DNA of 64,000 bases from Deefgea tanakiae. GTDB taxonomy: Bacteria > Pseudomonadota > Gammaproteobacteria > Burkholderiales > Chitinibacteraceae. The position numbers and the translations under genes were made by a program. Location of the stretch: NCBI RefSeq assembly GCF_019665765.1, contig NZ_CP081150.1:744001-808000 (forward strand). Direction: 5' to 3'. The notes beneath the pieces were generated by a model. The model was not told the DNA's origin and did no database searches. It worked only from the letters and a program-made list of their open reading frames with translations. Positions 9,549 through 26,348 of the stretch are shown here, piece by piece (position 1 is the stretch's first letter; each line of letters begins with the position of its first letter).

Positions 9549-9640
9549 TCGTATTGCCACTGCTGTGGCTGATTGTGGCTGCGCCTTGTTGCCAGCTATT
9601 TTGATTTTCGCAAAGTATGCTTTGCGTTCAGGATTTCATC

Positions 9641-11773
9641 ATGTTTTCTGTTCTTTCTCGCCCACAATGCGCGGTGCGTCCATTGGCGCTCGCCTTATCT
9701 TTACTCACTATTGCTGCTCACGCCGAAGTCACTCAACTGGAAGATGTTGTCGTGACTGCAACGCGAGAGGTGACGCCGATTGCCAAAGCACCGATTTCTA
9801 TCGGCAAAATCAATCAACAAACTTTACAAGACATTAAGCCGACGTTTATCGGCCAAGTGGTCAATCGCGTGCCTGGCGTGGTGATGACGGATTTGGGCAA
9901 TGAACAGCACAATATGTCGATTCGCCAGCCCATGACATATGCAGCGGTATATCAATATTTGGAAGACGGTATTCCAATTCGCCCAGTGGGTATTTTTAAC
10001 CACAATGCCTTGTATGAAATCAACTTACCTGGGGCGGATGGGATTGAGGTCGTGCGCGGACCCGCTTCCAGTTTGTATGGCAGTAATGCCGTGGGTGGAG
10101 CGATTAATTTTACGACGGCTGCTCCGCCTGCTGGTCCACTTTTTACACTCGGTGCTCAGTTCAGTAATGAGGGGTATCGCCGTGCAGACATTGCTGCTGG
10201 TAATACATGGGGTGATACGGGTATTCGCCTTTCTGGCTACCAAGCAGCACGCCGCGATAGCTGGCAAGATCATAATGAAATGGACAAAACTGGCCTGACT
10301 CTGCGTGGCGATCATTGGCTCAACGAATCATTGCTGTGGAAATCCACACTCACGTATTCCAAGCTTGATACCGAAATGCCTGGCAGTTTGAATGCGACCG
10401 ATTTCAATACGCGTCCTGGTTTTTCTTATAACACCTTCACTTATCGCGAAGTCGATGCATTACGGGCAACGACGGGCATTGAGGGCGAATTGAATGCGGG
10501 CGGTAAAACCAGCGCTACCGTGTATTACCGCGATAACACGACCAATCAATTACCGAGCTATTTGATTTTTAATACCGGCCCGAAAACCGCCAGCGGTCGT
10601 ACTACGGATAATAGTTTTACTTCTTTAGGCGCGACGGCATTTCATCGTCAACAGTGGGATGCGTTGAAATTAACCGTCGGTGGCTTAATTGAAACCAGCC
10701 CGCAAGATGCGCGTGAACAGAATTTATCCATTGTTCGCGATCCGGTGAGTGGTAAATATTTGTCGTACACCAAAGGCTCTATTCGCCGTGATTACAGCGT
10801 GGATTTGAGCAATCAAGCTGTTTATGGCGATGCTAGTTATGCCTTGGGTGGTGGTTGGGGTATCAATGCGGGCCTTCGTTATGACCGTGTTGTGTATGAC
10901 TTTACCAATTATCTGAAGCCATCGCCTACAACGGGTGGTGCGTCCCAAGAGCAGTCGTTCTCCAATGCATCACCGAAAGCGGGCTTGACTTGGCAGGCAG
11001 CTCCGGATTTATTTTTCTACAGCGGCTATAGCGTTGGTTTTACGCCACCCGAAGTCGGCTCATTGTTTTCCAGTGCGATTACACCGAATCTGAAACCTGC
11101 AACGTTTGATCAGTTTGAATTGGGGCTGCGTAGTCAACCGATCCCTGGTTTGAAACTGGACGCGGTCGTTTATCGTCTTGATGGTGAAGACGAGTTGGTC
11201 AACTTCACCACGCAACCCGGTAAATCTGAGCCGCGTAATGCAGGTAAGACGCGTCACGAAGGGGTTGAGTTAGGTTTGAACTGGACCGCTAATTCGGCGT
11301 GGAGCATGAATTTGGCAGGTCAATATGCCAAGCATATCTACCGTGAATACAAACCATCGCCAACGCTAAATTTCTCAGGCAATGACATTCCTGCTGCGCC
11401 TACTTGGCAAGGTCAAGTGGAATTAGTTTATCGCCCAATTGAAGCGCTCCGTTTGGGATTTGAGACAAGCTATCTGGGCAAATACTGGATGGATGAAAGC
11501 AATAAAGTCGAATACGGCGGCCATACCTTAGTTAATTTGCGCGCACAGTATCGTTTGAAGCAATTCACACTGTGGGCCAGTGTGAACAATTTACTGGATA
11601 AGCATTATTCAGAAATGTCGGCATCAAGCTACAAAGGCCAAGGTCCGCGCAATCCTGATGCACAAGACACCTACAATCCGGGCGCGCCGCGTACTTTCTT
11701 GGTGGGCGCAAGTTGGGCGTTCGGTGATGGTGGTCGTGATGGCAGTCGTGATGGTAAAGGGGCGCAACAATGA
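9641..11773 (+). CDS. TonB-dependent outer-membrane receptor
   Basis: Outer-membrane gated channel that imports a metal complex using TonB energy. After a signal peptide (LALALSLLTIAAHA) comes the TonB box region (EDVVVTATRE), the plug domain (VEVVRGPASSLYGSNAVGGAIN type motif near residues 130-155), and a 22-strand barrel ending in a C-terminal aromatic strand (TFLVGASWAFG) with a short extra tail. I use the ATG at 9641, since AGGA lies just upstream, rather than the in-frame ATG at 9617. The gene overlaps the next (PepSY protein) by four bases. Neighbours (PCuAC, DUF2946, PepSY, TonB) suggest copper or iron-chelate uptake. The ligand cannot be read from the sequence. Confidence 0.92.
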   Translation: MFSVLSRPQCAVRPLALALSLLTIAAHAEVTQLEDVVVTATREVTPIAKAPISIGKINQQTLQDIKPTFIGQVVNRVPGVVMTDLGNEQHNMSIRQPMTYAAVYQYLEDGIPIRPVGIFNHNALYEINLPGADGIEVVRGPASSLYGSNAVGGAINFTTAAPPAGPLFTLGAQFSNEGYRRADIAAGNTWGDTGIRLSGYQAARRDSWQDHNEMDKTGLTLRGDHWLNESLLWKSTLTYSKLDTEMPGSLNATDFNTRPGFSYNTFTYREVDALRATTGIEGELNAGGKTSATVYYRDNTTNQLPSYLIFNTGPKTASGRTTDNSFTSLGATAFHRQQWDALKLTVGGLIETSPQDAREQNLSIVRDPVSGKYLSYTKGSIRRDYSVDLSNQAVYGDASYALGGGWGINAGLRYDRVVYDFTNYLKPSPTTGGASQEQSFSNASPKAGLTWQAAPDLFFYSGYSVGFTPPEVGSLFSSAITPNLKPATFDQFELGLRSQPIPGLKLDAVVYRLDGEDELVNFTTQPGKSEPRNAGKTRHEGVELGLNWTANSAWSMNLAGQYAKHIYREYKPSPTLNFSGNDIPAAPTWQGQVELVYRPIEALRLGFETSYLGKYWMDESNKVEYGGHTLVNLRAQYRLKQFTLWASVNNLLDKHYSEMSASSYKGQGPRNPDAQDTYNPGAPRTFLVGASWAFGDGGRDGSRDGKGAQQ

Positions 11774-13266
11774 AGCGCGAAGACGTTTTGATTCAGCCCG
11801 TTCGTACTCAGCGTTTAGCTGTTTTGGTTCGCTGGCATCGCGCTTTAGCTTGGGTAGCTGGGGTGTCGGTGTTGATCTGGGGTTTGAGCGGCGTGATGCA
11901 TCCGATCATGTCGGCTTTGTCGCCTAAAGTAAATCCAGTTCCGCCTGCAGCCGCTTTACCTGCCACTTTAACGCCTGTGCCATTAGCGAGCTTGGCACAA
12001 GGGCGCTGGGCGGATAACGCGCATTCGGTGCAATCGGTTCGGCTGTTGATGTTGGCCGATCAAGCCGCATGGCGTGTTCAAGAAGCCAGTGTTGCTGGCC
12101 AGTTACCCGCTGCGCGCTGGTTTGCTGCTAGCTCTGGCGCTGAACTTCTTGATGCTGAAACGCAGCAAGCACAAAAGCTAGCGCGCGCCTTGGTGGGGGA
12201 TGCGCAAAGTGAGATTCGCAGCATGACACGGGTGACTGAGTTTGGTCGTGACTATCCGTCGATCAATAAATTACTGCCTGTATGGCGCGTCGAATTTGCG
12301 CGCGATGATGGCATGATTGCGTTTGTTGATACCGAAGGCCAACGCCTTGCGGCGCTATCAGATCAAACCAAGCGCACCTTGATGGGCGTATTTGTGTTGC
12401 TGCATACCTGGGCTTGGGCGAGCGAACCGGTGAAGCAAGTAGGTATCAGCGTCATGCTGGGTTTGACGCTGGTGACGATGTTGGCGGGTTTGGTGATGTA
12501 TATCATTCGCTGGCGCGCTAAAACCTTGCGCCCCAATCAGCCGCGTATGCGTCGTTTGCATCGCCAACTGGGTTTGATTGCGGGTGTAGCTGGAATATGT
12601 ATTGCGCTGAGTGGATTGCTACACCTTTGGTTTAGCCGTACACCCCCAGTCGTCTCTCCACCAGCAGCCTTGGCTAATTTACCGCAATTGCACGCGATTC
12701 CTGCTGGATTGACGGGATTAACGGCAGTCAATGTCGCCGAGCAAACACTGTGGTTAGTTCAAGGCGCAGCCAAGCCGATGCATGGTGGTGGCGAACACGC
12801 GCATCACGCCGCGGCTGCGGTGAAACCGAATCCACTGCCGACTTATTTGAATCACCATGGTCAAGCGGTGGCTGGCGCGGCTGAGCTGCATGCTGCGACG
12901 CTGATGCAGGCGATGGGCGTTGGGATGGCGTTGAAGAAGGCACCGATTCAGTCGATTGAGTTGATTAGCAAGTTTGGCGGAGAATATGGGTTTTTCCAAA
13001 AACGCTTGCCAGTGTATCGGGTGAATTTGGCCAATTCTGCGCAATCGAGTTGGTATATAGAGCCGGCAACAGGGCAGTTTTCTAATCTCGTTGAGCTACG
13101 TGATCGTTTAGAAGGCTATAGCTTTGCCTACTTGCATAAATGGCATTGGCTCGATGGCTTAGGTAAAACGACGAGGGATATTATCTTGGCGAGTTTTGCT
13201 GCGGCCAATGTGGTGCTGGCGGTGATTGGCATGCTGCTTTGGCGTCGTCGGCGTAGCAAGCAGTAA
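11770..13266 (+). CDS. PepSY-associated membrane protein (PepSY_TM family)
   Basis: Inner-membrane protein of 498 residues in the PepSY_TM family, often found with TonB-dependent receptors and proposed to reduce or process imported metal chelates. Four helices are evident: about 27-47, 224-247, 269-290 and 470-493, with two large periplasmic parts. Features typical of the family are RWHRALAWVAG near the start, LHTWAWAS near residue 217 and YLHKWHWLDGLG near residue 455. A His-rich loop near 337-350 (MHGGGEHAHHAAAA) could bind metal. Translation is coupled to the receptor by an ATGA overlap, so the two probably act on the same substrate. Confidence 0.88.
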   Translation: MKREDVLIQPVRTQRLAVLVRWHRALAWVAGVSVLIWGLSGVMHPIMSALSPKVNPVPPAAALPATLTPVPLASLAQGRWADNAHSVQSVRLLMLADQAAWRVQEASVAGQLPAARWFAASSGAELLDAETQQAQKLARALVGDAQSEIRSMTRVTEFGRDYPSINKLLPVWRVEFARDDGMIAFVDTEGQRLAALSDQTKRTLMGVFVLLHTWAWASEPVKQVGISVMLGLTLVTMLAGLVMYIIRWRAKTLRPNQPRMRRLHRQLGLIAGVAGICIALSGLLHLWFSRTPPVVSPPAALANLPQLHAIPAGLTGLTAVNVAEQTLWLVQGAAKPMHGGGEHAHHAAAAVKPNPLPTYLNHHGQAVAGAAELHAATLMQAMGVGMALKKAPIQSIELISKFGGEYGFFQKRLPVYRVNLANSAQSSWYIEPATGQFSNLVELRDRLEGYSFAYLHKWHWLDGLGKTTRDIILASFAAANVVLAVIGMLLWRRRRSKQ

Positions 13267-13340
13267 TTGGTGTAAAAAGTCCGTATTATCGGCAGTCTTA
13301 ATTCGCGCATTGGAAGGTAAGCATTAGATGGAATGTATTT

Positions 13341-14084
13341 GTGTTGATTAGTGCTGACTTAATGCCACCGCGTAGGCGACTGCGCGGAGCATTGTGCTGC
13401 GCCTTGTTACTGCATGCGTTGTTGATCGGAGCTTGGCAGGGATTCTCGCTGCCGAGAGTTGAAGAAACACCAGTGCCAAGCTCGATGGCCGTTATGTTGC
13501 AAACAGCAGTGCTTGAACCTAAAGCTGTTGCCCGTCCAGCGCCAGCGCGAGAGCGTGCATTACCCAAAAATGTACCGCTGCAATCTGCAGTTCTTCCAGC
13601 CCAATCTCAACCCAAAGTGCTCAAGCAGATACCGATTGATACGGTGGCGACGCAAAGCCAACTACTTGTTCCTCCTGATAGTCCACAAGCGGCGGATGCT
13701 AAGCCTGTGGTCGTCGTGACGGCAAGCAATGAGGCTCCAAACTCACCACAAAATACCAAAGTCAGCAGAGAGAAGGAGGGCGAGGGCAAAGTCACTCCGG
13801 CGCAATATCTACCTGCCCATTTAAATAATCCAAGGCCAGTGATGCCTTATATTTCAATAAAAAATGGCGAATCGGGCACGGTACGTTTGTGGGTGAAAGT
13901 CAGTGCTAAAGGCGAGCCGTTGGCGGTGAGAGTAGAAAAGTCGAGTGGCTTTCCACGTTTAGATGAGGTTGCTTTTAAAGCGGTGAAAGAGAAATGGCGC
14001 TTTGTGCCCGCCAAGCGCGGCGATACGCCAATTGAAAGCGAAGTGGCGTTTAATATTCCCTTTGTATTGACCGACGCTGAATAA
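13341..14084 (+). CDS. tonB: TonB-like energy transducer
   Basis: Links the proton motive force to the outer-membrane receptor. It has a single N-terminal helix (ALCCALLLHALLIGAW), a long Pro/Ala/Gln-rich periplasmic spacer (about residues 40-150), and a TonB C-terminal domain (about 160-245) with GTVRLWVKVSAKGEPL, SSGFPRLDEVAFKAV and KWRFVPAKRG. I take the GTG at 13341. The ATG at 13362 is an alternative with a weaker upstream site. It lies 74 bases after the PepSY gene, so it may belong to the same unit. No exbB or exbD is present here, so the motor must be encoded elsewhere. Confidence 0.85.
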   Translation: MLISADLMPPRRRLRGALCCALLLHALLIGAWQGFSLPRVEETPVPSSMAVMLQTAVLEPKAVARPAPARERALPKNVPLQSAVLPAQSQPKVLKQIPIDTVATQSQLLVPPDSPQAADAKPVVVVTASNEAPNSPQNTKVSREKEGEGKVTPAQYLPAHLNNPRPVMPYISIKNGESGTVRLWVKVSAKGEPLAVRVEKSSGFPRLDEVAFKAVKEKWRFVPAKRGDTPIESEVAFNIPFVLTDAE

Positions 14085-14108: not shown

Positions 14109-14510
14109 ATGAAAATCGACCATATTCCTGAAACCGAAATCGAATTCACCGCCATTCGCGCCCAAGGCGCGGGCGGACAAAACGTCAATAAAGTATCGAG
14201 CGCGGTGCATTTGCGTTTTTCGATCGCCAACTCCTCATTACCGGATGAACTCAAGGCGCGTTTGTTGGTGCTCAATGATCATCGCATCACCAAGGATGGC
14301 GTTATTGTGATCAAGGCGCAAACTTCGCGCAGTCAAGAAGCCAATCGACTTGATGCGATTGCACGTTTGCTGGATCTCATCAATGCAGCAGCGGTAGTCG
14401 TGAAGGCGCGTCGTGCCACCAAGCCGACTTATGGCTCAAAGCAACGTCGACTGGAAGGAAAGCAACTGCGTGGCTCAGTGAAAGCTTTGCGTGGCAAGGT
14501 GTCATATTGA
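14109..14510 (+). CDS. arfB: Alternative ribosome-rescue factor ArfB (peptidyl-tRNA hydrolase)
   Basis: Small release-factor-like protein of 133 residues that frees ribosomes stalled on mRNAs lacking a stop codon. The catalytic GGQ lies at residues 22-24 ([20 protein letters not shown]). The family's essential basic tail that enters the empty mRNA channel is present at the C-terminus ([19 protein letters not shown] and [12 protein letters not shown]). Length and architecture match E. coli YaeJ (140 residues). It starts 24 bases after the tonB-like gene. That may reflect co-transcription but probably not a shared role. Confidence 0.95.
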
Positions 14511-14643
14511 GGGAGTGAGCTTGATTTTGACTCAGTTTAAGCTCGTATTTGTTACATAAGAAACATGCAGATAGCCACCCAAGACGGCTATCGATAAGCT
14601 CTCAGCATAAAAATCTACGAGACAGTAGACTGGGAGAGAGACT

Positions 14644-16860
14644 GTGTTGAAACCAAGCCTGTCCACATTGATTGGATTTATGCTGGTGCTGCTGAGTTCG
14701 TGGGCAAGCGCGAATCCACGCATTATTGCCTACTACCCGTTTTGGGTTAATCCACCACTGATGTCATTGCCGGTAGAGCGTGCGACGCAGATTACTTATG
14801 CGTTTGCCAACCTGACTGCGGACGCGCAGATCACGCCTGCTGAGCCGGCTTTTGATTTGAATAAAGCCACATTATTGACCGATGGCAGCCGAGTCCAAGG
14901 CCATTATGCCGTGCTTCGCGCATTAAAACGCGCCCATCCCGATTTGAAAACAGTAATTTCCATTGGCGGTTGGCATTATTCAACACATTTTTCTGATGTT
15001 ACCGCGAGTCCTCAATTGCGCCGTGTCATGGCGCAGTCGGTGCTGGATTTTACGGAAAAATATGGTTTTGACGGTGTTGAGCTTGCTTGGCATTTTCCGG
15101 GCTCAGGCGGAAAAATTGGCAACAGTCAGCGTGCAGAAGATGGGGAAAATCTAGTCTTGCTGCTGCAAGAAATTCGCGCGCTGAGTCAACATCGCCCTTT
15201 GATTGTTGGCTTGAGTTTAGGTCCGCTCAATACGCAAATTGCTGCGCTGCCCGTTGCCCAATTAATGCCATTAATTGATTATGGCGTGCTACAGGTGGGG
15301 GATTATACTGGCGCGTGGAGCCCACGAACAGGCCATAAATCACCACTGTATAGCGCTAAATGGCAAGTTGGAATTGACTTGGCGGTCAATACATTGCTAA
15401 ATCAAGGTGCAGTGGCCGATAAGTTGGTTTTGGTGATTCCAACGCAAGGAATGAGTTTTGTCGGCGTTCCGCCCGCAGAGCAGGGCTTGAATCAATCGCA
15501 TCAAGGTCCTTCGTTTGGTTCTTGGGATGATCCAAAAACCGGTGCAACGGGCATGATTGGTCAAGATGAAGCGGCAGCCATCATCGCTAATGGCCAATTG
15601 ACGGCGCATTGGGACGCCACTGCGAAAGCGATGTCATATTACAGTCCGGCATTACAGCAATTCATCAGTATCGAATCACCGCAGGCGGTCGCAGCAAAAC
15701 TGCAATATGCCCAAGAGAAAAATCTGGGCGGCTTTGCGCTTTGGGATTTGAGTAGCGATTCGAGCACGCAGAGCTTATTAAGCCAAATTGAACATAGTTA
15801 TTATCCGTGGCGCTCTTTTGAGCATGACGTGCAGCAGTGGTGGAAAAATCATCCTGCTTGGATTGATACGGCATTTGGTGTGATTTTAGCGAGTTTGATT
15901 TTTATTGCGCTGGGCTTTTGGCTAAGACGCTATCGCGAGCGTCAGTTACTGGAGATTGAAATTGCTCAGCTACGGCATGTGAAGGATGTGATGCACACGC
16001 TACCACATGCTTTGCTAAGTTTGCGCCAAGCCAGTTTAGCGATATTAAATCAAAGTCAGTTGGCGCCATTACACGCTAGAACACAGCCTTTATTGGCATA
16101 CAGTGATCGATTAGCATGGCAACTGGAGCCTTTGTTGATTACTGAGGCAGCTGCCAGTGCACCCCCGACCGAGATCAGTTTATCTGCCCAGCGTTTGCAA
16201 ACGCTGACTGAGTTTAGTCAGCAATTATCAGAGCAACGTAGTTTAGAAAAAATGCTCGAAGTCACAATGGCTTTTTTGGCTGAAGAATCGCAAGTGCAGG
16301 GGGTAGCACTCTATCAAGATGGCGATTTATTGGCGCAGCAAGGCCAAGCTGTAGGATTAAATTCAAGCACAGCAATTCAATCTGTGTGGGCAGGCGAGAC
16401 GTGGGATGATTACACCTTGGCGATTGAATTTGGCCAGACTTTATCGTCCGATGATGCTGCCTTTTACCGCAGCCTAAGTCAGCAGTTCGCTACGGTGCGG
16501 GCGCAATTGTATGAGCTAGGGCGGCAGCCGCAGTTACTGTCTGAGTTGTATGAAATTGCTTCGCGGCGTGCCAAAATTTTGTATATCCGAGCCGACAAAG
16601 GCTATAGCGGCATTTACGCCAGTGATTTGCGCGCGCCGCACTACATCACGCTACGCTTGCGCGCGATACGGATGTATTTTGATGAAAAGCTGCTGCTGCA
16701 AGTCCATCGCTCGTATTTGATAAACCCTAAAAAAGTGACGAGTGCCAGCAAGCGTGGCCGTGATGTTTGGGTGCTGAATGTCGCCAATGAAGAAATTCCA
16801 ATTGCGCGGCAATATCTGAGCCGTTTGCGTTTGGATTTTCCTCACTGGTTTACTGAGTAA
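14644..16860 (+). CDS. Transmembrane one-component regulator: degenerate GH18 sensor with LytTR output
   Basis: A 738-residue protein joining a secreted chitinase-like fold to a DNA-binding domain. A signal or anchor segment (LIGFMLVLLSSWASA) leads into a GH18-type barrel (residues about 25-390) with the SIGGWHYS strand and the sugar-cleft end GGFALWDL. The catalytic motif DGxDxDWE reads D143-G-V-E146-L-A148-W-H150, so the acid/base Glu is His and the middle Asp is Ala; hydrolysis is not expected. A helix follows (about 411-428), then a helical/GAF-like cytoplasmic region (about 440-635) and a LytTR domain (about 640-735; YIRADKGYSGIY, VHRSYLINP). I infer it binds chitin oligosaccharides outside and controls transcription directly. 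The GTG start has GGAGAG upstream. Two deacetylase genes lie nearby. Confidence 0.82.
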   Translation: MLKPSLSTLIGFMLVLLSSWASANPRIIAYYPFWVNPPLMSLPVERATQITYAFANLTADAQITPAEPAFDLNKATLLTDGSRVQGHYAVLRALKRAHPDLKTVISIGGWHYSTHFSDVTASPQLRRVMAQSVLDFTEKYGFDGVELAWHFPGSGGKIGNSQRAEDGENLVLLLQEIRALSQHRPLIVGLSLGPLNTQIAALPVAQLMPLIDYGVLQVGDYTGAWSPRTGHKSPLYSAKWQVGIDLAVNTLLNQGAVADKLVLVIPTQGMSFVGVPPAEQGLNQSHQGPSFGSWDDPKTGATGMIGQDEAAAIIANGQLTAHWDATAKAMSYYSPALQQFISIESPQAVAAKLQYAQEKNLGGFALWDLSSDSSTQSLLSQIEHSYYPWRSFEHDVQQWWKNHPAWIDTAFGVILASLIFIALGFWLRRYRERQLLEIEIAQLRHVKDVMHTLPHALLSLRQASLAILNQSQLAPLHARTQPLLAYSDRLAWQLEPLLITEAAASAPPTEISLSAQRLQTLTEFSQQLSEQRSLEKMLEVTMAFLAEESQVQGVALYQDGDLLAQQGQAVGLNSSTAIQSVWAGETWDDYTLAIEFGQTLSSDDAAFYRSLSQQFATVRAQLYELGRQPQLLSELYEIASRRAKILYIRADKGYSGIYASDLRAPHYITLRLRAIRMYFDEKLLLQVHRSYLINPKKVTSASKRGRDVWVLNVANEEIPIARQYLSRLRLDFPHWFTE

Positions 16861-16980
16861 TGATTGGGGCTTGCTACTTAGATCGAGAATCGTTCTTTCA
16901 TTTTGCATCATGAACAACTATACCCAAAGCGAAGCGTAAATTTTGCGCCTATTGAATGCTTTTTGATGCGGAGGTGGCCA

Positions 16981-17721
16981 ATGAAACGATTGGGTTGGCT
17001 GTTTGTGTTTTTGTTGTGCTGCGCGTCAATCGTTTCGGCAAAAACAATCGTAGCTGTTTCAGACCCCTTTCCGCCGTTTGTCGATCCGAGCAACCCTAGC
17101 GGTGGTCTCGCCATTGAAGTGATTCGGGCGGCGTATAAAACACAAGGCCATGAGGTGAAAGTGGAATACGTGCCATGGGCAAGAGCCGAAGCGGGTGTCG
17201 CTAGTGGCATTTACGATATTTTGCCGAATATGTGGTTTAGTGAAGCGCGTTCAAAAAACTTCCTGTTTAGTACTGCATACGTCAACAACACCATTCGATT
17301 TGTGAAACGCAAGGGCGATCCCTTTGTTTTTCAGGGGATAGAAAGTTTAAAAGGTAAAACTGTGGGCGTGACGCGTGGCTACACCTATAGCGATGCATTT
17401 AAAAATTCCACATTGTTTCGTCGAGAAGACGCCAATGGCTTGTTGATTAATTTAAAGAAATTGCAGGCAAAACGGATTGATTTGACCTTGGATGACGAGG
17501 CGGTCGTTAACGATACTATTTCAAGAAATAATCCGAAGTTACTTTCTGAGATTGAAATGGCAGAAGGGCATTTATCTGTTAATCCGCTCTATGTAGTCAG
17601 TGGGATTAAAAACCCCAATCACAAGGAGTGGATTGAGTCATTTAATGCTGGCTTAAAGGTGATAAAAGAGAATGGGGTGTTGGCTGATATTTTCAAGAAG
17701 TATGGCCTTCCATATAAATAA
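16981..17721 (+). CDS. Periplasmic solute-binding protein, family 3 (amino-acid type)
   Basis: Secreted binding protein of 246 residues with a signal peptide (MKRLGWLFVFLLCCASIVSA) and an SBP_bac_3 fold: KTIVAVSDPFPPFVDPS at the start, GGLAIEVIRAAY, and EYVPWARAEAGVASGIYDIL in the first lobe. The ATG at 16981 is preferred because AGGTGG lies just upstream; the open frame continues 26 codons further. No permease or ATPase gene is adjacent. Orphan proteins of this type often act as sensors or serve distant transporters. It follows the GH18-LytTR regulator by 120 bases and could be its target or partner, which is inference only. The ligand is unknown. Confidence 0.85.
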   Translation: MKRLGWLFVFLLCCASIVSAKTIVAVSDPFPPFVDPSNPSGGLAIEVIRAAYKTQGHEVKVEYVPWARAEAGVASGIYDILPNMWFSEARSKNFLFSTAYVNNTIRFVKRKGDPFVFQGIESLKGKTVGVTRGYTYSDAFKNSTLFRREDANGLLINLKKLQAKRIDLTLDDEAVVNDTISRNNPKLLSEIEMAEGHLSVNPLYVVSGIKNPNHKEWIESFNAGLKVIKENGVLADIFKKYGLPYK

Positions 17722-18908: not shown

Positions 18909-20924
18909 TTATTGAGCACTAAACGTCACTGGGCCTGCGAGTGGATCAACTGTGATTAAGAAGCTTGGTGCTTGTGGCACAGGTAAACCATTGCTGTAGA
19001 TGACTTTGCTTGGCAAACGAGGTATTGCTTTGCCGGCTTGCATTGCCACTTGGGTTAGACCACCAATCATCAAGGTCAGTGGCGTAGCAAATTTCACGCA
19101 TTCCGCATCGGTGCTGGCAAATGTAATCACTGAGCCGTAATTATAGTTGCTTAAACCTAAAGTGGGTTTGCATGCTTCACGTGCTTTGCTGTATTTCAAG
19201 ACGGTACTTGGCCCCGCCACCCAGAGTAAACGCGCGTCGACTTTGGCTTTGATGTAATCCAAATGTGCAGTGTATTGTGCTAATGGCACGCTATTCCAAG
19301 AGGCGTCATTCACACCGTGCATCGTACGATTAGCCCAGCCGCCGTTGGCAATGGCAGCATCAACGTGCAAGTTGAGTAAATCGCCACCCGCTTTGACTTG
19401 GGCCTCATACAGTGACCACTGTGCAGTGAGGGTGAACATATCATCTTTGATTTGGAATGGATCTGCAGTAGTCGTTGCATTGACGCCTGATATATGACCA
19501 TCGTAAATTATCATGCCATTAGGATCGACGCGATTCGGCGCACGACCGCCGATAAAACCGGCTGCGCTGCGTAAAAATGCTAATGGCTCATCGGCTGCGA
19601 CGCCAGATGGCCATGCAAAGAAGGTTGGGCGATAACCATTGAGGCGAGCAGCGATGTCGTCACTTGAACCGCTAATTTGTGCCGCAGCATCCCATGTGAG
19701 GCTCATTGCATCGGTGTGGCTACGCGTATGGCTGAAAATTTCATGGCCATCGGCGATGAATTGTTTGGCTGCATTCCAGTGCTTATCGCCGCAATTGCCG
19801 GTAATCATGCCGAATGATGAAATCAGACCACGTTGTTTCAACGCAGGAGCCGCAAAATCGATTTGACCATCAGTGACCCATGCACATAAATCGTCATGCA
19901 TCATTGAGTAAGCTGCAGTGGCATCGTCTTTCCACGTGGTGACCCGCATATCTGTTATGACCGCTGGTGTGCTTGGTGTTGGGCTGGCCGTGATTGTCGG
20001 CGTTGGGCTTGGTGATACCGATGGGGTCGTGCTTGCCGTTGGTGTTGCGCTTGGTTTAGCTGTCGCAGTCGCAGTTGGCGTTGGCGTACTGCTGCTGATC
20101 AGTCCAAGATCTTTCCAAACGCCCCATGTACCAGATGTACTTGGATTTTCACCGACCGTGTACCACTTGGCTTCATAGAGGCGACTATTGTACGTAGCGC
20201 GCTTTCCAGCGGTGTAAACGGTGGTGCTATTCCATTCATTGCCTGTCGGAGCAACGGTTGTTACGGGGGTTGGTGTTGCAGTTGGCGTTGCGCTAATGGT
20301 CGGAGTTGCAGTAGCAGTTGCAGTCGGAGTTGGCACTGCGCTTGGGATCGGTGTTGGCGGTGGGCATGGTGCAGGCAAGATTTTCAGTGCTTGCCACAAG
20401 GAGGGATCATAAGTAACGGTGTTGTTTGTTGAGTTGTAACGAGGTTGATTGGTGTTGGTGCTCAAATGCGCTGCTAACGCTTTCATTACCACTTGACCCC
20501 CAATTGAAACGGCAGTTCCCAAGGCATATTGTTGATTCAATTGCCACGATGGTGGGCCATATGGTGGCGTGCATGTGCCTGGGTAGGTGTCGGTAATTGA
20601 ATTTACCGAACGGCTTGGCGGTGTGGCAGTTGGTGTTGTTGTGGCCGTTGGTACTGGCGTTGGTGTAGCAACAACAGTCACTTTTTTCCATGCGCCCCAT
20701 TCTCCTGCCGTCGCAGGGCTATCGCCCTTCGTCCACCATTGTGCTTCATAGGTAGTCCCATTTTGCGTAACGCGTTGGCCTGCGGTGTAAGTGCTGGCGC
20801 TATCCCAGGCAGGGGCGCTTGGTATTGTCGTTGGATTTGGCGTTGGTGATAAGGCGAACGCACCGCCCGATAAAAGACCTGCACTGATGAGTAAGCTCAC
20901 CATCATTGTTTTATTCAATTGCAT
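18909..20924 (-). CDS. Secreted multimodular polysaccharide deacetylase with chitin-binding modules
   Basis: Exported enzyme of 671 residues, probably removing acetyl groups from chitin or its oligomers. After a signal peptide (MVSLLISAGLLSGGAFA) come a CBM5/12-type chitin-binding module (about 39-81; AWDSASTYTAGQRV, GEWGAWKKV), a Cys-bounded module of less clear type (about 105-190), a second CBM5/12 module (about 228-270) and a NodB domain (about 320-560). These are joined by Thr/Pro/Ala-rich linkers. NodB motifs are MHDDLC (metal Asp), HTRSH and FAWPSG. The start at 20924 is chosen because GGAG lies seven bases upstream. The next gene encodes a second deacetylase with a similar catalytic domain. 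Chitin as substrate is inferred from the binding modules. Confidence 0.88.
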   Translation of the reverse strand: MQLNKTMMVSLLISAGLLSGGAFALSPTPNPTTIPSAPAWDSASTYTAGQRVTQNGTTYEAQWWTKGDSPATAGEWGAWKKVTVVATPTPVPTATTTPTATPPSRSVNSITDTYPGTCTPPYGPPSWQLNQQYALGTAVSIGGQVVMKALAAHLSTNTNQPRYNSTNNTVTYDPSLWQALKILPAPCPPPTPIPSAVPTPTATATATPTISATPTATPTPVTTVAPTGNEWNSTTVYTAGKRATYNSRLYEAKWYTVGENPSTSGTWGVWKDLGLISSSTPTPTATATAKPSATPTASTTPSVSPSPTPTITASPTPSTPAVITDMRVTTWKDDATAAYSMMHDDLCAWVTDGQIDFAAPALKQRGLISSFGMITGNCGDKHWNAAKQFIADGHEIFSHTRSHTDAMSLTWDAAAQISGSSDDIAARLNGYRPTFFAWPSGVAADEPLAFLRSAAGFIGGRAPNRVDPNGMIIYDGHISGVNATTTADPFQIKDDMFTLTAQWSLYEAQVKAGGDLLNLHVDAAIANGGWANRTMHGVNDASWNSVPLAQYTAHLDYIKAKVDARLLWVAGPSTVLKYSKAREACKPTLGLSNYNYGSVITFASTDAECVKFATPLTLMIGGLTQVAMQAGKAIPRLPSKVIYSNGLPVPQAPSFLITVDPLAGPVTFSAQ

Positions 20925-20977
20925 CTGCTCCATCCTTTTGAAAGGTTTTGTTTTGAGTTTATGGAAATAGATTTCCA

Positions 20978-20985
20978 ATACTCTA
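20978..20985 (-). promoter_or_regulatory. AGAGTATT box upstream of the CBM-deacetylase gene
   Basis: On the coding (minus) strand the sequence CACATAGAGTATT ends about 54 bases before the start codon. A near-identical CACAAGAGTATT lies about 60 bases before the second deacetylase gene (22152-22159). Similar position and sequence suggest a shared promoter element or operator. There is no experimental basis. Confidence 0.35.
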
Positions 20986-21039
20986 TGTGGGTACTACGGT
21001 GAAAACTTTGTTGAATAATGCATTCAAGCCAATACCTAT

Positions 21040-22092
21040 TTAGTTGATGCTGAGATCTCCTAAAGCAGGATTAAATTGAATTCGGTATTTGCCATTGGCT
21101 AACTTTTTGCTGGTCAAGGGCTTTTTGTTTTGTGTAAATTGCCCTTGTAATTCATCAGCGATTTGCACATCAACGGTGATCGCGCTGGCATAGCGTTGGC
21201 AAAGTTCATTATTTTGTTTGAGTTTGAGGGCGTTGCCAGTGAGGACGAGTGGGCAGTTTTCGCGGGTGGCTTGGTAGCGAATAATCTCGCTTGGGCCTGC
21301 TAACCACAGCTCGCCGCTAGCGACTTTTTTCAGCAAATAATCGGCGTAAGCGATGTACTCGTCTTTGGGTACGGCTTCCCATGAGCCATCGGCAACACCA
21401 TGCATCGTGCGGTAACTCCAACCGCCATTTTCCAGCGCAGCATCAACGTGCTGAATGAGCATATTGCCGCCAGTGGGTTTATACAGCGACCATTTTCCAT
21501 CGTGCCAATACACATCGTTTTTGATGAAAAATGGATCGGTGTTATTGCTGCTATTGATACCGGCATTACTACCGTCATAAATATGTTTGGCGGCGCGAGC
21601 ACCTAAATAATCGGGCAGAGTGAGCAAATAGGCTTTGGCTTCGGGCGTGGCCAGATCACTGGGATAAGCCATAAATTGCATCGTGTAGCCGAGTTTCTCT
21701 TTGACCAATTGATGGGCTGAGGCGATTTCTTTTTCATTATTCCAGCCTGCAATCGGTTTGAGTGAGCCCGCTTCGAGCATACCAACATGGGAGAGTGAAT
21801 GGTTGAACAGCTCATGGCCTTCAGCGATATGTTTTTTGAGTTTGGTCCAATCATTGTCTTTGCACGAGCCCGCAATTAAGCCGAGGCTGGCTTTTAAACC
21901 GCGCTCGTTCAAAATCGGCAAAGCGGTATTTTCAACACCGGGAACACTGCTACCACAGTAATCATCATGCGCGATTGTGTGGGCGGCTTTGGCACCATCT
22001 CGCCAAGTTTGTATTTCAAAGCTGGAATTGGCACTGCAGGCAAGGGCAGAGTACAGGCTGAAAATAATGCCTAAGTGCAGATTCAATTTCAT
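21040..22092 (-). CDS. Secreted polysaccharide deacetylase (NodB fold)
   Basis: A 350-residue exported protein: signal peptide (LGIIFSLYSALACSA) then a single NodB-type domain. The metal and catalytic motifs are IAHDDYC, HSLSH (in HELFNHSLSHVGM) and MAYPSD, and the C-terminal half shares HVDAALENGGW and RTMHGVADGSW with the neighbouring CBM-bearing deacetylase. It has no binding module of its own, so it may act on soluble oligomers. The start at 22092 has GGGAGGG seven bases upstream, and the extra five codons of the longer frame are rejected. The tandem arrangement with the larger enzyme suggests duplication. Substrate (chitin or chitooligosaccharide) is inferred. Confidence 0.85.
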   Translation of the reverse strand: MKLNLHLGIIFSLYSALACSANSSFEIQTWRDGAKAAHTIAHDDYCGSSVPGVENTALPILNERGLKASLGLIAGSCKDNDWTKLKKHIAEGHELFNHSLSHVGMLEAGSLKPIAGWNNEKEIASAHQLVKEKLGYTMQFMAYPSDLATPEAKAYLLTLPDYLGARAAKHIYDGSNAGINSSNNTDPFFIKNDVYWHDGKWSLYKPTGGNMLIQHVDAALENGGWSYRTMHGVADGSWEAVPKDEYIAYADYLLKKVASGELWLAGPSEIIRYQATRENCPLVLTGNALKLKQNNELCQRYASAITVDVQIADELQGQFTQNKKPLTSKKLANGKYRIQFNPALGDLSIN

Positions 22093-22151
22093 AACATACC
22101 CTCCCAAAATTTGAATTTGGCTCGACTATGCCTAGGTAGTAAGGCCTAGGG

Positions 22152-22159
22152 AATACTCT
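22152..22159 (-). promoter_or_regulatory. AGAGTATT box upstream of the second deacetylase gene
   Basis: Copy of the box seen at 20978-20985, again about 60 bases ahead of the start codon on the minus strand. Next to it lies a CCTAGG repeat (CCTAGG-TAGTAAGG-CCTAGG, about 22130-22150). The remaining gap to 22538 holds no recognisable gene. Confidence 0.35.
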
Positions 22160-22538
22160 TGTGCTTCAGATACATGAATAGCGCTTTTATTTGCATTTAT
22201 TTCAATATTTTCAATACGTTGGGCGCTGTTTAATCTGCTGTTTTTTTCACGGCTGGTGTGTGGCTAAACTGCAAATGAGGAGATGGCCAAGGTCTTGGTT
22301 TGAAAATAATACGGATTTGTCATTGAAACGATTCATGTTGGCGAACTGTTTTCTGAAGCAATTTCACTTTTAGTGTGCAAACTGTTTCTTGGGCAGGTTT
22401 GATGTTTTGAGTGCTTTATTGAGACACGATTACTGAACGCTACGAATGGCTTCGGCATGGTCGAGCAGATTGCCCTTACATGAACTACGCTGTAGATAAT
22501 TATTTGCCGCAGCACACGGCCGAAATTATGGAGTTAGG

Positions 22539-25500
22539 ATGCATAGTGAGTTGATCGAGGCCATTTTGAGGGCTCAGACCGGATTTGATGCGGGTGCAGA
22601 CCCTAAGGGGGTTTTTGAAACCGTATTGAGTGATTTGTTACAGCTTACGGCCAGCGAATATGGCTTTATCGGTGAGGTGATGATGAAAGAGGGCGTGCCG
22701 AGTCTACGCACTCACGCCATCACCAATATTGCTTGGAACGAAGAAACGCGCGCATTTTATGCCCAGCATGCCCCAGAAGGTTTGGTCTTTACCAATCTGA
22801 ATACTTTGTTTGGTGCGGTGCTAACCACGAGTCAGCCAGTGATTGCCAATGATCCCGCAAATGATCCACGGCGTGGTGGCTTGCCACCGGGGCATCCGCC
22901 GATGACGGCTTTTCTTGGCTTACCGATTCATTGTCAGGGTGAATTGCTCGCGATGGTAGGCGTGGCCAATCGGTCCGGTGGTTATGAAGCGAGCTGGATC
23001 GAGTTTTTGCAGCCTTTATTGATGACGATTGGGCAGTTATTGCTGTTTCGTCGCGCCAATTTAAATCGGATTATCGCCGAGTCTCATCAGCAACGTCAGC
23101 AAGAGGCTTTGCGAGTGCTCAGCCATATTGCGGCACTGACCGATCGTGATGATCAAGCCTTGCTGCGCCAGTCGCTTTGTTTAGCGTGCGAGTATTTTGA
23201 CCTGCCCATGGGGATCATCAGTCGGATTGAAGGCGATGCTTATCGAATCGCGGTACAGACGAGTCCATCTGATACTTTACAGGATGGGATGGAATTTCTG
23301 CTGGCGGGGACGTATTGCTCGATAACCTTTTCTGCAAATGATGTTGTGGCCATTACCCATATGGCTGATTCTGAGTATGCAGGTCATCCCTGCTATCAAG
23401 ATTTCGGTTTGGAGTGTTATATCGGCGTGCCTATCTTGTTGGCGGGGCAACGGATTGGCACCTTGAATTTTTCATCGAACCAGCCGCACCCGACGACCTT
23501 TGACGAGGTTGATTTTGAGTTCATGCGCTTACTGGCTAGCTGGGTTGGTGCCGTGCTCGAACGTCAGCGGCAGACGCAATCGAGAGAAGAACTACTCGGG
23601 CGCTTGCAGAAAATTGGTACTCAGGTGCCGGGGATGGTTTACCAGTATCGCCTATTTGCCGATGGCCGCAGTTGCTTTCCGTATGCCAGCAGCGGTATAC
23701 GCGATATTTATGGCGTGAGTCCCGCTGATGTTTCCGAAGATGCGAGCTCAGTGTTTGCCACGCTATATCCAGATGATGTCGCACAGGTGATCGATAGCAT
23801 CACGGTGTCCTTCGAAACGCTAGAGCATTGGCAGGCGATTTATCGGGTGAACCATCCGCAAAAAGGTTTGATTTGGGTCGAGGGGATCGCCAGTCCTGAG
23901 CGCACACCGGAGGGTGATACGCTTTGGCATGGTTTTATCACTGACATTACGGCACGCAAGGCAGCAGAGGTCAGATTGCAGGCCAGCGAGGCTCAAAAAA
24001 AGATGCTGTCGCTGGTTGCGAGTCGAACGTCCAATGCGGTGGTGATTACCGATGCGCAGGGGCAGGTTGAATGGGTCAATGATGGTTTTGTCCGTATGAC
24101 CGGCTATGACTTATCATTTATGCAGGGCAAACGGCCTGGTGCAGTTTTGCAAGGTGCACTCACTGATATGAAAACGGTGGCCGAAATGTCACGTCAATTG
24201 CGCCTTGGTGAGCGTTGCACTGCAGAAATCTTGAACTACGCCAAAGATGGCAGCCTGTACTGGATTTTGCTGGATATCGAGCCGATTAGAGATGAGCAAG
24301 GGCAGATCAAGCATTATATTGCAATCGAAACGGACATCAGTGCCCGCAAGCAGTCAGAACTATTGCTGGCGCAGGAGCGTGAACGATTGGCCAATATTAT
24401 TGAGGCGACCAATATTGGAACCTGGGAATGGAACCTACAAACTGGCCAAACACATTTTAATGCACGCTGGGCTGAGATCGTTGGCTATACCTTGGATGAA
24501 CTCGCGCCGATTTCGATTGAAACGTGGCTTAAGCTCGCGTGTCCAGATGACTTGCAAGAGTCTGAATCGCGTTTAAAGCGGCATTTTAGTGGCGAAGATC
24601 CTTACTACGATTTTGATTGCCGCATGAAACACAAGGACGGGCACTGGGTATGGGTGCACGATCGAGGTCGGGTTATTGAGTGCTTGCCGGATGGTCAGCC
24701 GCTGCGTATGTCGGGTACGCATGAGGATATTAGCGAGCGCAAGGCAGCTGAAGCTGAGCTAAGCGCGGCAAAATTGGCCGCTGAAGCCGCCAGTCGAGCA
24801 AAAAGTGCCTTTTTGGCCAATATGAGTCACGAAATTCGCACCCCGATGAATGGCGTACTCGGTATGGCAGGCTTGCTGCTCGATACCGATTTGTCGATCC
24901 AGCAGCGCGAGTTTGCCGAAACCATTCGACAAAGCGGCGATATATTGCTCAGCGTGATCAACGATATTCTTGATTTTTCTAAGGTTGAAGCCGGGCGGAT
25001 GGAGTTAGAGCAAGTTGACTTTGATCTGGTGGCGCTGCTGGATGGCGTAGCGGCCGTGATGGCCTTGCGACCTCGAGAAAAAGGCATTGCATTGAGTTGT
25101 AGCCGTGCGCCTGATGTGCCCACTTGGGTGAGAGGGGATCCGGGTCGACTACGGCAAGTGCTGATCAATTTAATGGGTAATGCGATCAAGTTCACCGAGC
25201 AAGGTGGCGTTACCGTTATGACTCAATTGCTTGGTATCAGTGAAAAGGGTATTTCTCTACGATTCAGTGTTCGTGACACTGGGCTAGGTATACCTCCAGA
25301 TAAAGTTGGTCGATTATTTGAAAGTTTTTCGCAGGTTGATGCGTCGACAACCCGCCGCTTTGGTGGCACGGGACTGGGTTTGGCCATTAGCAAACAATTG
25401 GTCGAGTTGATGGGGGGGCAAATCAGTGTGCAAAGTATTGAGGGATTGGGCTCTGAATTTGCATTTAGCGTTACGCTGGGCGCTGCCGAACAAATTACTG

Positions 25501-26348
25501 CGCTTGCTTCTACTACGAGCCAAACTGATAACTTTAGAGTGCTGGCTGTTGATGATAGCGCTTCGCAGCGCGAACATTTATGTAATCAGCTCAAAAACTG
25601 GGGCTGCAATGCAGTGATGGCTGAAGGTGGCGTCGAAGCTTTGCACTTGCTTTCCCATGCCGCGCAAACGGGGCGGCCATTTCAGCTGGTGCTGATAGAT
25701 CTTTACATGCCGCATATGGATGGGATTGAGTTGGGGCAACAGATCGTAGCGAAGGCGGAGTTGGGCAATCCATTGCTGATTTTGTTAACTGCCGTAGGAA
25801 CACGTGGCGATGCCTTGCGGGCTCGTGAATCGGGGTTTGCTGGTTACTTAAGTAAACCGCTACAACAAAAAGCATGGCAAACGGCAATGGGTATGGTGCG
25901 GCGTCATCCGCCTGAACCTTCATTCTTGACGCGTTATTCAGTTCCGGAATCAGACCAAGTGGTGCGTGTTTTGCTAGCTGAAGACAACCGCGTTAATCGC
26001 ATTGTTGCAGTCAAGTTATTGGAAAAGCTCGGCTGTATCGTGCATGCCGTTGAAAATGGTATTGAGGCGATTCAGGCTCTGGTGGATCAGGATTTTGATC
26101 TGGTCTTTATGGATATGCAGATGCCAGAAATGGATGGTATTGAGGCCATACGCAAAATCCGCGATCCCGATACAGGCGTACGCTGGCCTAAGATTCCTGT
26201 GCTGGCATTAACTGCCAATGCCACATCAGAGGATAGACAGCTATGCTTAGCGGCAGGGATGGATGACTTTCTCTCTAAGCCAATTAACGACAGTCAATTA
26301 CAAGAAAAAGTACGGGTTTGGAGCGGTACAAGAAAAACAGCCGATTGA
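22539..26348 (+). CDS. Hybrid sensor histidine kinase (GAF-GAF-PAS repeats-HisKA-HATPase-REC-REC)
   Basis: Large cytoplasmic signalling protein of 1269 residues with no membrane helix. Order: GAF (about 1-170; PANDPRRGGLPPGHPP), GAF (about 190-350), three PAS/PAC units (about 350-740), HisKA with phospho-acceptor His764 (SHEIRTPMNG), HATPase (NAIKF; DTGLGIP; GGTGLGL), then two receivers with phospho-Asp1054 (LIDLYMPHMDG) and Asp1192 (FMDMQMPEMDG). Both receivers keep their Asp, so a His-Asp-Asp relay is possible, but no Hpt domain is present, and it must lie elsewhere. The ATG is preceded by GGAGTTAGG. The first GAF is of the type seen in kinases sensing small molecules; the signal is unknown. 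It is transcribed alone and ends at a clear terminator. Confidence 0.93.
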   Translation: MHSELIEAILRAQTGFDAGADPKGVFETVLSDLLQLTASEYGFIGEVMMKEGVPSLRTHAITNIAWNEETRAFYAQHAPEGLVFTNLNTLFGAVLTTSQPVIANDPANDPRRGGLPPGHPPMTAFLGLPIHCQGELLAMVGVANRSGGYEASWIEFLQPLLMTIGQLLLFRRANLNRIIAESHQQRQQEALRVLSHIAALTDRDDQALLRQSLCLACEYFDLPMGIISRIEGDAYRIAVQTSPSDTLQDGMEFLLAGTYCSITFSANDVVAITHMADSEYAGHPCYQDFGLECYIGVPILLAGQRIGTLNFSSNQPHPTTFDEVDFEFMRLLASWVGAVLERQRQTQSREELLGRLQKIGTQVPGMVYQYRLFADGRSCFPYASSGIRDIYGVSPADVSEDASSVFATLYPDDVAQVIDSITVSFETLEHWQAIYRVNHPQKGLIWVEGIASPERTPEGDTLWHGFITDITARKAAEVRLQASEAQKKMLSLVASRTSNAVVITDAQGQVEWVNDGFVRMTGYDLSFMQGKRPGAVLQGALTDMKTVAEMSRQLRLGERCTAEILNYAKDGSLYWILLDIEPIRDEQGQIKHYIAIETDISARKQSELLLAQERERLANIIEATNIGTWEWNLQTGQTHFNARWAEIVGYTLDELAPISIETWLKLACPDDLQESESRLKRHFSGEDPYYDFDCRMKHKDGHWVWVHDRGRVIECLPDGQPLRMSGTHEDISERKAAEAELSAAKLAAEAASRAKSAFLANMSHEIRTPMNGVLGMAGLLLDTDLSIQQREFAETIRQSGDILLSVINDILDFSKVEAGRMELEQVDFDLVALLDGVAAVMALRPREKGIALSCSRAPDVPTWVRGDPGRLRQVLINLMGNAIKFTEQGGVTVMTQLLGISEKGISLRFSVRDTGLGIPPDKVGRLFESFSQVDASTTRRFGGTGLGLAISKQLVELMGGQISVQSIEGLGSEFAFSVTLGAAEQITALASTTSQTDNFRVLAVDDSASQREHLCNQLKNWGCNAVMAEGGVEALHLLSHAAQTGRPFQLVLIDLYMPHMDGIELGQQIVAKAELGNPLLILLTAVGTRGDALRARESGFAGYLSKPLQQKAWQTAMGMVRRHPPEPSFLTRYSVPESDQVVRVLLAEDNRVNRIVAVKLLEKLGCIVHAVENGIEAIQALVDQDFDLVFMDMQMPEMDGIEAIRKIRDPDTGVRWPKIPVLALTANATSEDRQLCLAAGMDDFLSKPINDSQLQEKVRVWSGTRKTAD

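Follow-up and report, generated by a model that had tools for sequence, protein, structure and literature searches.

To our knowledge, chitin sensing in chitin degraders other than vibrios is poorly understood. The closest described systems are those of Vibrio cholerae, where ChiS is presented, in passages of PMC11856585, as a membrane-embedded, chitin-responsive protein that itself binds DNA and is thought to be activated via the chitin-binding protein CBP; its DNA-binding domain is, according to parts of PMC8092284, of a type of its own. The same passages of PMC11856585 describe TfoS as a transmembrane regulator that requires chitin oligosaccharides and activates the small RNA tfoR, and call it unclear whether TfoS senses chitin directly. 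Here we analyse a gene from Deefgea tanakiae (Gammaproteobacteria, Burkholderiales, Chitinibacteraceae; assembly GCF_019665765.1, 3.56 Mb in one contig) that lies within a stretch of 64,000 nucleotides (NZ_CP081150.1, positions 744,001 to 808,000), hereafter the window, whose coordinates are used throughout. The gene joins a catalytically dead GH18 chitinase domain to a LytTR DNA-binding domain. We think it fairly likely that its product is a membrane-bound one-component activator, in which a periplasmic pseudo-chitinase senses chitin oligosaccharides and drives transcription of CE4-type deacetylase genes. The protein is composed as follows.

14644..16860, plus strand: pseudo-chitinase/LytTR membrane regulator, 738 residues, GTG start (open reading frame without internal stop, Pfam, conserved family)
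14644..14712, plus strand: N-terminal signal sequence or anchor helix, residues 1-23 (hydropathy; helix 6-21 in the AlphaFold model)
14719..15759, plus strand: GH18 TIM barrel, residues 26-372, catalytically dead (H150 for Glu, A148 for Asp)
15856..15924, plus strand: transmembrane helix, about residues 405-427 (hydropathy; helix 405-470 in the AlphaFold model)
15925..16179, plus strand: helical linker of two long helices (AlphaFold model)
16180..16563, plus strand: GAF-like domain, residues 513-640 (hhalign probability 95.7, E 9.8e-9; secondary structure of the model)
16573..16830, plus strand: LytTR DNA-binding domain, residues 644-729 (Pfam, alignments)

The initial annotation had described a GH18 domain followed in the same chain by a helix and a LytTR domain, and this layout holds: the GH18 match scores 201.5 bits against a Pfam cut-off of 29.6, the LytTR match 41.8 bits against 22.6, and a hydropathy peak at about residues 404-429 marks the helix between them. 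Sensor, transmembrane helix and DNA-binding domain stand in a single chain, as in a one-component regulator, and no HisKA, HATPase or receiver domain, the marks of a two-component or hybrid histidine kinase, was found in the window protein (Pfam, up to E 0.001). A DUF4381 match was dropped, its score lying below its cut-off. Of the proposal that the protein binds chitin outside and acts on DNA inside, the second half has strong comparative evidence in the form of a chitin-related DNA target; with a single transmembrane helix in a Gram-negative bacterium, "outside" means the periplasm, and binding of oligosaccharides there is something we infer from the barrel. Missing from that first description was the GAF-like domain between the transmembrane segment and the LytTR domain. 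The helical linker is less conserved than the three domains, as judged from their identities, and the LytTR sequence QVHRSYL is invariant in alignments of 23 and of 26 rows. Fold searches were filled by GH18 entries and thereby barely probed the GAF-like and LytTR parts; a profile of the C-terminal part matched no PDB sequence at 0.01, and the LytTR part alone gave one weak match (3d6w, E 0.012).

A search for the same fusion in related genomes, as the initial annotation had suggested, found 29 full fusions in 21 of 43 Chitinibacteraceae genomes, eight of which carry two each; one further genome (G030) has the GAF-LytTR half only. The copy in Deefgea chitinilytica (G006) is 82% identical to the window protein over residues 7-738. 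Because the fusion recurs in this way, chance or an assembly fault is excluded as the source of the chain. Two peptide patterns of the C-terminal part, run against 84,980 species represented by one genome each, returned 36 loci: 18 from Chitinibacteraceae, seven further fusions, seven hybrid kinases that share this C-terminal part, and four other LytTR proteins. The seven fusions come from other gammaproteobacteria, namely Marinifaba, Colwellia, two Thalassotalea, a metagenome-assembled genome of Saccharospirillaceae, Vibrio sp. Of7-15 and Motilimonas. In a 369-genome sample of the class, searched with a C-terminal profile at E 1e-18, only the window genome matched. Since both searches gave few others, the family appears, as far as these sequence searches extend, to be rare outside Chitinibacteraceae.

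The motif DGxDxDWE of active GH18 chitinases reads DGVELAWH in the window protein (D143-G-V-E146-L-A148-W149-H150). As had been annotated, and as we read in the translated frame, the acid/base Glu is replaced by His and the Asp two positions before it by Ala; in addition the second Asp is Glu, and the SxGG strand (SIGGW) is retained. The Glu is replaced in 36/36 distinct fusions, none of which carries the active motif with its acid/base residue, and is present in 9/9 separate GH18 proteins aligned beside them. Among 28 aligned Chitinibacteraceae fusions (27 from loci plus the window copy) the position holds R in 22, Q in 4 and H in 2; the 29th (L067), aligned separately, has R, and the seven fusions from elsewhere have R, Q or T. 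Twenty-six of the 28 retain the third Asp of the motif, where both Deefgea copies have Ala; six still have the Tyr of the YD motif, and 27 the neighbouring Asp (D220).

Other parts of the barrel have been kept. Five aromatic residues of the cleft (W34, W110, W149, W294 and W367) are invariant in 28/28 Chitinibacteraceae copies, and the barrel superimposes on the chitobiose-bound structure of the chitinase CsChiL with a root mean square deviation of 1.4 Å over 348 residues at 30% identity; by profile match and TIM barrel the domain belongs to the GH18 fold family. Between the window copy and that of D. chitinilytica the ratio of nonsynonymous to synonymous substitution rates (dN/dS) comes to about 0.06 in the barrel and 0.02 in the LytTR domain, values that are only rough, the synonymous distance exceeding 1.5 and nearing saturation; at about 0.06, this rough estimate indicates that the dead GH18 domain is under purifying selection. 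A tree of 54 GH18 domains (35 from fusions, 19 separate ones picked from the fetched loci) is divided by a branch with 100/99 support that has all the fusions on one side, some rows from outside Chitinibacteraceae being long-branched. Residue conservation and fold would be compatible with a lectin-like pseudo-chitinase, which would bind chitin oligosaccharides without cutting them.

The predicted target lies downstream of the regulator on the opposite strand, where two deacetylase genes had been noted and are confirmed by Pfam.

22246..22254, minus strand: candidate operator box 1, core AGCCGTGAA (strict match to the triad described below)
22171..22179, minus strand: candidate operator box 2, core ATTCATGTA, 75 bp from box 1
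22125..22130, minus strand: -10-like element CATAGT, 49 bp past the start of box 2
21040..22107, minus strand: CE4-type polysaccharide deacetylase, predicted target (Pfam PF01522; same family downstream of the sites in other genomes), its true start probably the ATG at 22092
18909..20978, minus strand: second CE4-type deacetylase with two CBM5/12 modules (Pfam), without a site of its own that we could find and assumed to share a transcription unit with 21040..22107

A ATTCGTGAA repeat was first noticed upstream of deacetylase genes. It belongs to a triad of two direct ATTCGTGAA-like boxes 72-77 bp apart and a -10-like CATAGT that follows 48-50 bp after the start of box 2. The strict match in the window spans 22125-22251 (G000:C1:766125-766251) and the whole candidate site 22125-22254; of the two promoter regions named in the initial annotation, 22093-22190 overlaps this site, whereas 20925-21040 contains no box pair. 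In 26 loci (25 from relatives and the window stretch) we counted 19 box pairs with up to three mismatches at 64-77 bp, where 40 permuted cores gave 2.5 on average and never more than 8; in 23 of 27 aligned promoters CATAGT or a one-base variant stands 49-50 bp past the start of box 2. We grouped 49 deacetylase rows into 39 transcription units, ten same-strand followers being assumed to lie under the preceding gene's promoter. The triad, with at most five mismatches in 24 positions, precedes 34 of the 39; the corresponding frequencies were 0/3000 in 700-bp control windows, 0.13% of 3000 in 1500-bp windows and 0/1000 in shuffles of the promoter stretches, the control windows being drawn from the window and loci L084-L100, mostly of other bacteria, with a base composition that differs from that of the tested promoters.

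We stress that the figure of 34/39 is partly non-independent, because the 39 include the promoters from which the motif was originally recognised, and searches of whole genomes are therefore the fairer test. Across the 43 genomes the strict triad occurs at 20 places in 15 genomes, 13 of them with the regulator or its half and two without; read backwards, it occurs at two. Sixteen of the 20 places precede CE4 genes, two precede CBM5/12-GH18 genes, one a gene resembling those of nonribosomal peptide synthetases (NRPS), and one lies within a coding gene. In the genome of the window there are exactly two strict triads, both before CE4 genes, the second upstream of a third deacetylase gene near 3.43 Mb. 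Control of chitinases is not supported in this genome: 0/12 loci with a GH18 match, one of them the regulator's own, have a box pair in the fetched stretch, and the strict pattern matches no GH18 locus. The pattern TTCGTGAA-N57..69-TTCGTGAA occurs at 16 places in 14/43 genomes (reversed control, 1), seven beside the regulator, two before distant CE4 genes and seven inside long open reading frames; four of the last, in Chitinibacter, are antisense to a frame of 518-534 residues that in L067 (G061) is a histidine-kinase gene.

The two GH18-CBM genes and the NRPS-like gene with a triad all belong to Andreprevotia. The latter (L176:3736-6239, G021:C10) has formyltransferase and AMP-binding domains, and its strict triad could place a secondary metabolite under the same control.

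Presence of the regulator follows that of its predicted targets. All 22 genomes that have the regulator or at least its LytTR half (E 1e-55) also encode a CE4 deacetylase (E 1e-20), as does one of the 21 that have neither (Fisher p 2e-11, ignoring kinship). Of seven Deefgea species, two have both regulator and deacetylase, four have neither, and one (G004) has deacetylases only; among nine genomes of genus g8, G030 alone has either the regulator half or a deacetylase. Deacetylase genes (PF01522) also adjoin the group A copies of the regulator in Deefgea, Chitinibacter, Andreprevotia, Chitiniphilus, Chitinolyticbacter, Jeongeupia and one Chitinilyticum (L082), as well as the fusion of Marinifaba; some of them had been masked by longest-frame calling and were revealed by tblastn. 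Three of the four deacetylases scanned (window, L083, L174) carry CBM5/12.

From these observations we propose the following mechanism. Having lost hydrolysis and kept a chitinase-like aromatic cleft, the periplasmic barrel would bind chitin oligosaccharides uncut; by way of the transmembrane helix, then the helical linker and the GAF-like domain, the signal would reach the LytTR domain in the cytoplasm. This domain would read the two direct boxes, about 74 bp apart, of which the nearer starts about 49 bp upstream of CATAGT, and, bound to both, would activate the CE4-type deacetylase genes, in the window genome the operon 18909-22107 and the third gene near 3.43 Mb. With 10.5 bp per turn of DNA, about 74 bp corresponds to seven helical turns, which would set the boxes roughly on one face.

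Several observations, given in this and the next two paragraphs, weigh against such an activator. Full triads are lacking before 5 of the 39 CE4 units, L133 and L145 having a box pair without the -10 element and L126, L127 and L181 neither. Proteins of the LytTR family bind direct repeats; direct box pairs stand beside the gene and before its predicted targets, with a spacing of 74 bp that differs from the approximately 21 bp of textbook LytTR sites. In parts of PMC8802321, a 2021 study of Andreprevotia ripae, one CE4 protein is abundant and not induced by chitin, and the sole detected GH18 protein without the Glu is low and not upregulated; these may be other proteins than the CE4 and fusion proteins discussed here.

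The GH18 domain may sense something other than chitin oligosaccharides, either a different glycan or a protein (for example a binding protein in its loaded state; compare ChiS and CBP), or it may be a scaffold; we regard this as rather unlikely. Catalytic death is no proof of ligand binding, as shown by the mosquito protein AgBR1, a dead GH18 barrel that has undergone a comparable double loss (E to Q, D to A) and that, according to parts of PMC12090808, bound neither chitobiose (GlcNAc2) nor chitinhexaose (GlcNAc6). The catalytic centre of the window copy is altered further, lacking also the Tyr and one more Asp, a binding protein and two-component set lies near some fusion copies, and W367 is found in none of the seven gammaproteobacterial copies outside Chitinibacteraceae, whose ligand may therefore differ. 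Against this stand the cleft aromatics, invariant throughout the Chitinibacteraceae copies, the closeness of the barrel to a chitobiose-bound chitinase, and predicted targets from a family that acts on chitin-type glycans.

Somewhat less probable still, in our judgement, is that another regulator, for example an ordinary LytTR response regulator, reads the signature and that the fusion merely travels with the deacetylase genes. The main counter-evidence to our proposal belongs here: G004 keeps sites before both of its CE4 genes without the fusion. Its gene order is the same, with the release-factor and solute-binding protein genes directly adjoining where the regulator is missing (L174:13516-14755, G004:C5, compared with window 14109-17721). 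A recent loss of the regulator is possible; with four mismatches each, however, the sites are no weaker than those of the window, so that decay after loss is not visible and another reader could be at work. In G030, moreover, the GAF-LytTR protein (271 residues, without GH18 domain or transmembrane helix) adjoins a CE4 gene with a site (L065:2276-4780). The window genome has three other LytTR proteins, and the box resembles the site of AlgR, which is CCGTTCGTC. However, LytTR proteins of ordinary size are found in 43/43 genomes regardless of CE4 genes and so do not track the sites; the fusion tracks CE4 genes and adjoins a box pair, and in several loci the copies of paralogue group B likewise have pairs beside them. 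In these genome comparisons no LytTR protein other than the fusion was seen to track the sites. The G030 protein may be either a soluble form of the regulator or a decayed copy.

That the regulator instead represses the deacetylases when its ligand is absent seems improbable to us: the direction of control cannot be read from sequence, and DNA looping by paired boxes is conceivable, but the -10-like element follows both boxes at a near-fixed distance and is overlapped by neither, a layout like that of an activator. Residual hydrolysis through another acidic residue, such as D143 (28/28 Chitinibacteraceae copies) or E146 within the motif, is highly improbable with R, Q or H at the acid/base position of 28/28 copies and R, Q or T in 7/7 from outside.

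Paralogue group B comprises eight copies in the GH18 tree. Of the six loci examined, four have box pairs 65-66 bp apart (L070, with more mismatches, L072, L073 and L074), one has a pair at 75 bp, and L076 has none. The pairs lie upstream of the regulator gene in the opposite orientation, and no -10 element stands at the usual place in the five loci with pairs; autoregulation or a different target is possible on this arrangement. Sites of the textbook LytTR kind (9-bp repeats with a spacing of about 21 bp) were also sought and rejected as candidates, nothing consistent being found before Chitinibacteraceae deacetylases. Of the seven loci outside the family, counts were near shuffled means in L083, L088, L089 and L096 and raised in L085-L087 (4-6 against about 2), nearly all within genes; one perfect intergenic pair before the Marinifaba deacetylase, with 0.09 expected in the locus, is an anecdote only.

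Further genes of the neighbourhood are these.

16903..17721: SBP_bac_3 protein (Pfam)
22539-26345: large hybrid kinase, its gene divergent from the deacetylase operon, with GAF, PAS, HisKA and HATPase domains and two receivers
9617-14081: in series, a 718-residue frame resembling a TonB-dependent receptor, a multi-transmembrane protein (498 residues) and a TonB-like protein

The first of these is the solute-binding protein that the initial annotation had placed beside the regulator; it is there but probably unrelated, because its gene keeps the release-factor gene as neighbour in a genome that lacks the regulator. GH18 genes are found near the fusions of Thalassotalea, Vibrio and Motilimonas; in Thalassotalea the GH18 gene is preceded by one for a TonB-dependent receptor and by a tryptophan-halogenase-like gene. 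These two genes occur 3' of the fusion in L086 (8778-14937), L087 and L085 (Thalassotalea, Colwellia), in what resembles a chitin-uptake island, whose gene families were scanned in L086 only. In Chitinibacter (L067:551-4122) an SBP_bac_1 binding protein, an OmpR-type response regulator and a histidine kinase are encoded near the fusion, and relatives of some or all of the three lie near fusions in L069, L075 and L079 (Andreprevotia and Jeongeupia among the genera); they may form a second sensing system alongside it. Several neighbours have no link to chitin, for example RsgA, CorC-like and Mqo.

As to origin, the GAF-like segment is homologous (hhalign probability 95.7) to the one that, in hybrid histidine kinases from SAR324 and Desulfobacterium, precedes LytTR, the domain content of two such kinases having been determined. 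The seven fusions outside Chitinibacteraceae show no kinase or receiver domain (Pfam, up to E 1). When the fusions of Colwellia and Thalassotalea were searched for the remains of a kinase ATPase, hhalign gave a P of 0.012 at a probability of only 3.7%, in a region modelled mostly at pLDDT (predicted local distance difference test) below 50, and a kinase relic there is only a suggestion. We tentatively hypothesize, at a little under even chances, a regulator family in which a dead-chitinase periplasmic sensor switches on chitin deacetylation through a paired operator that stands at a constant distance from the -10 element and is read from the membrane, its GAF-LytTR half having come from a hybrid kinase that lost kinase and receiver, perhaps with a relic in those copies.

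If the proposal is true, a pseudo-enzyme can be the input of a bacterial transcription factor, and a sensing module has been recruited from the enzyme class that produces its own ligand. The proposal points to deacetylation of chitin oligosaccharides, besides hydrolysis, as a separately controlled step. A glycosidase pseudo-enzyme as sensor, a DNA site and a small target set together make a directly testable system, and the box/-10 signature is a handle for locating more targets.

Each part of the fusion has described relatives. CsChiL of Chitiniphilus shinanonensis (6kst, 6kxl) has the same barrel, but the fusion lacks the acid/base Glu and is joined to a transmembrane helix and LytTR; W50 of CsChiL, the Trp mutated in 6kxn, aligns opposite W34 of the fusion (numbering inferred). 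CHI3L1/YKL-40, Ym1 and AgBR1 are dead GH18 barrels, of which CHI3L1 and Ym1 match the fusion by sequence, and the YKL-40 motif shows a similar change of Asp to Ala with loss of the Glu; we know of no DNA-binding domain in these animal chitinase-like proteins, nor of a GH18 sensor in TfoS. The hybrid kinases with REC-GAF-LytTR ends share the GAF-LytTR half, whereas the fusions have no kinase or receiver detected by Pfam. LytTR proteins with transmembrane helices are mentioned in parts of PMC10269533. The initial annotation knew of no regulator with this layout, and in the open-licence literature we likewise found no description of the fusion as a regulator or of its DNA site; the layout itself, however, has very probably already been drawn in PMC8802321. 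In the parts of that paper available, LytTR is one of the domains that the legend of Figure 1 gives for GH18, GH19, GH20 and lytic polysaccharide monooxygenase proteins, and 4/25 secreted GH18 proteins lack Glu144. Because of that legend, and because strain IGB-42, to which its locus tags belong, carries two copies (L069, L070), its protein set very probably includes the fusion family; those parts treat the proteins as putatively chitin-active enzymes, term none a membrane regulator and propose no DNA target. Unlike ChiS, the fusion combines a GH18 pseudo-enzyme as its sensor with a LytTR output and with deacetylases as its predicted targets.

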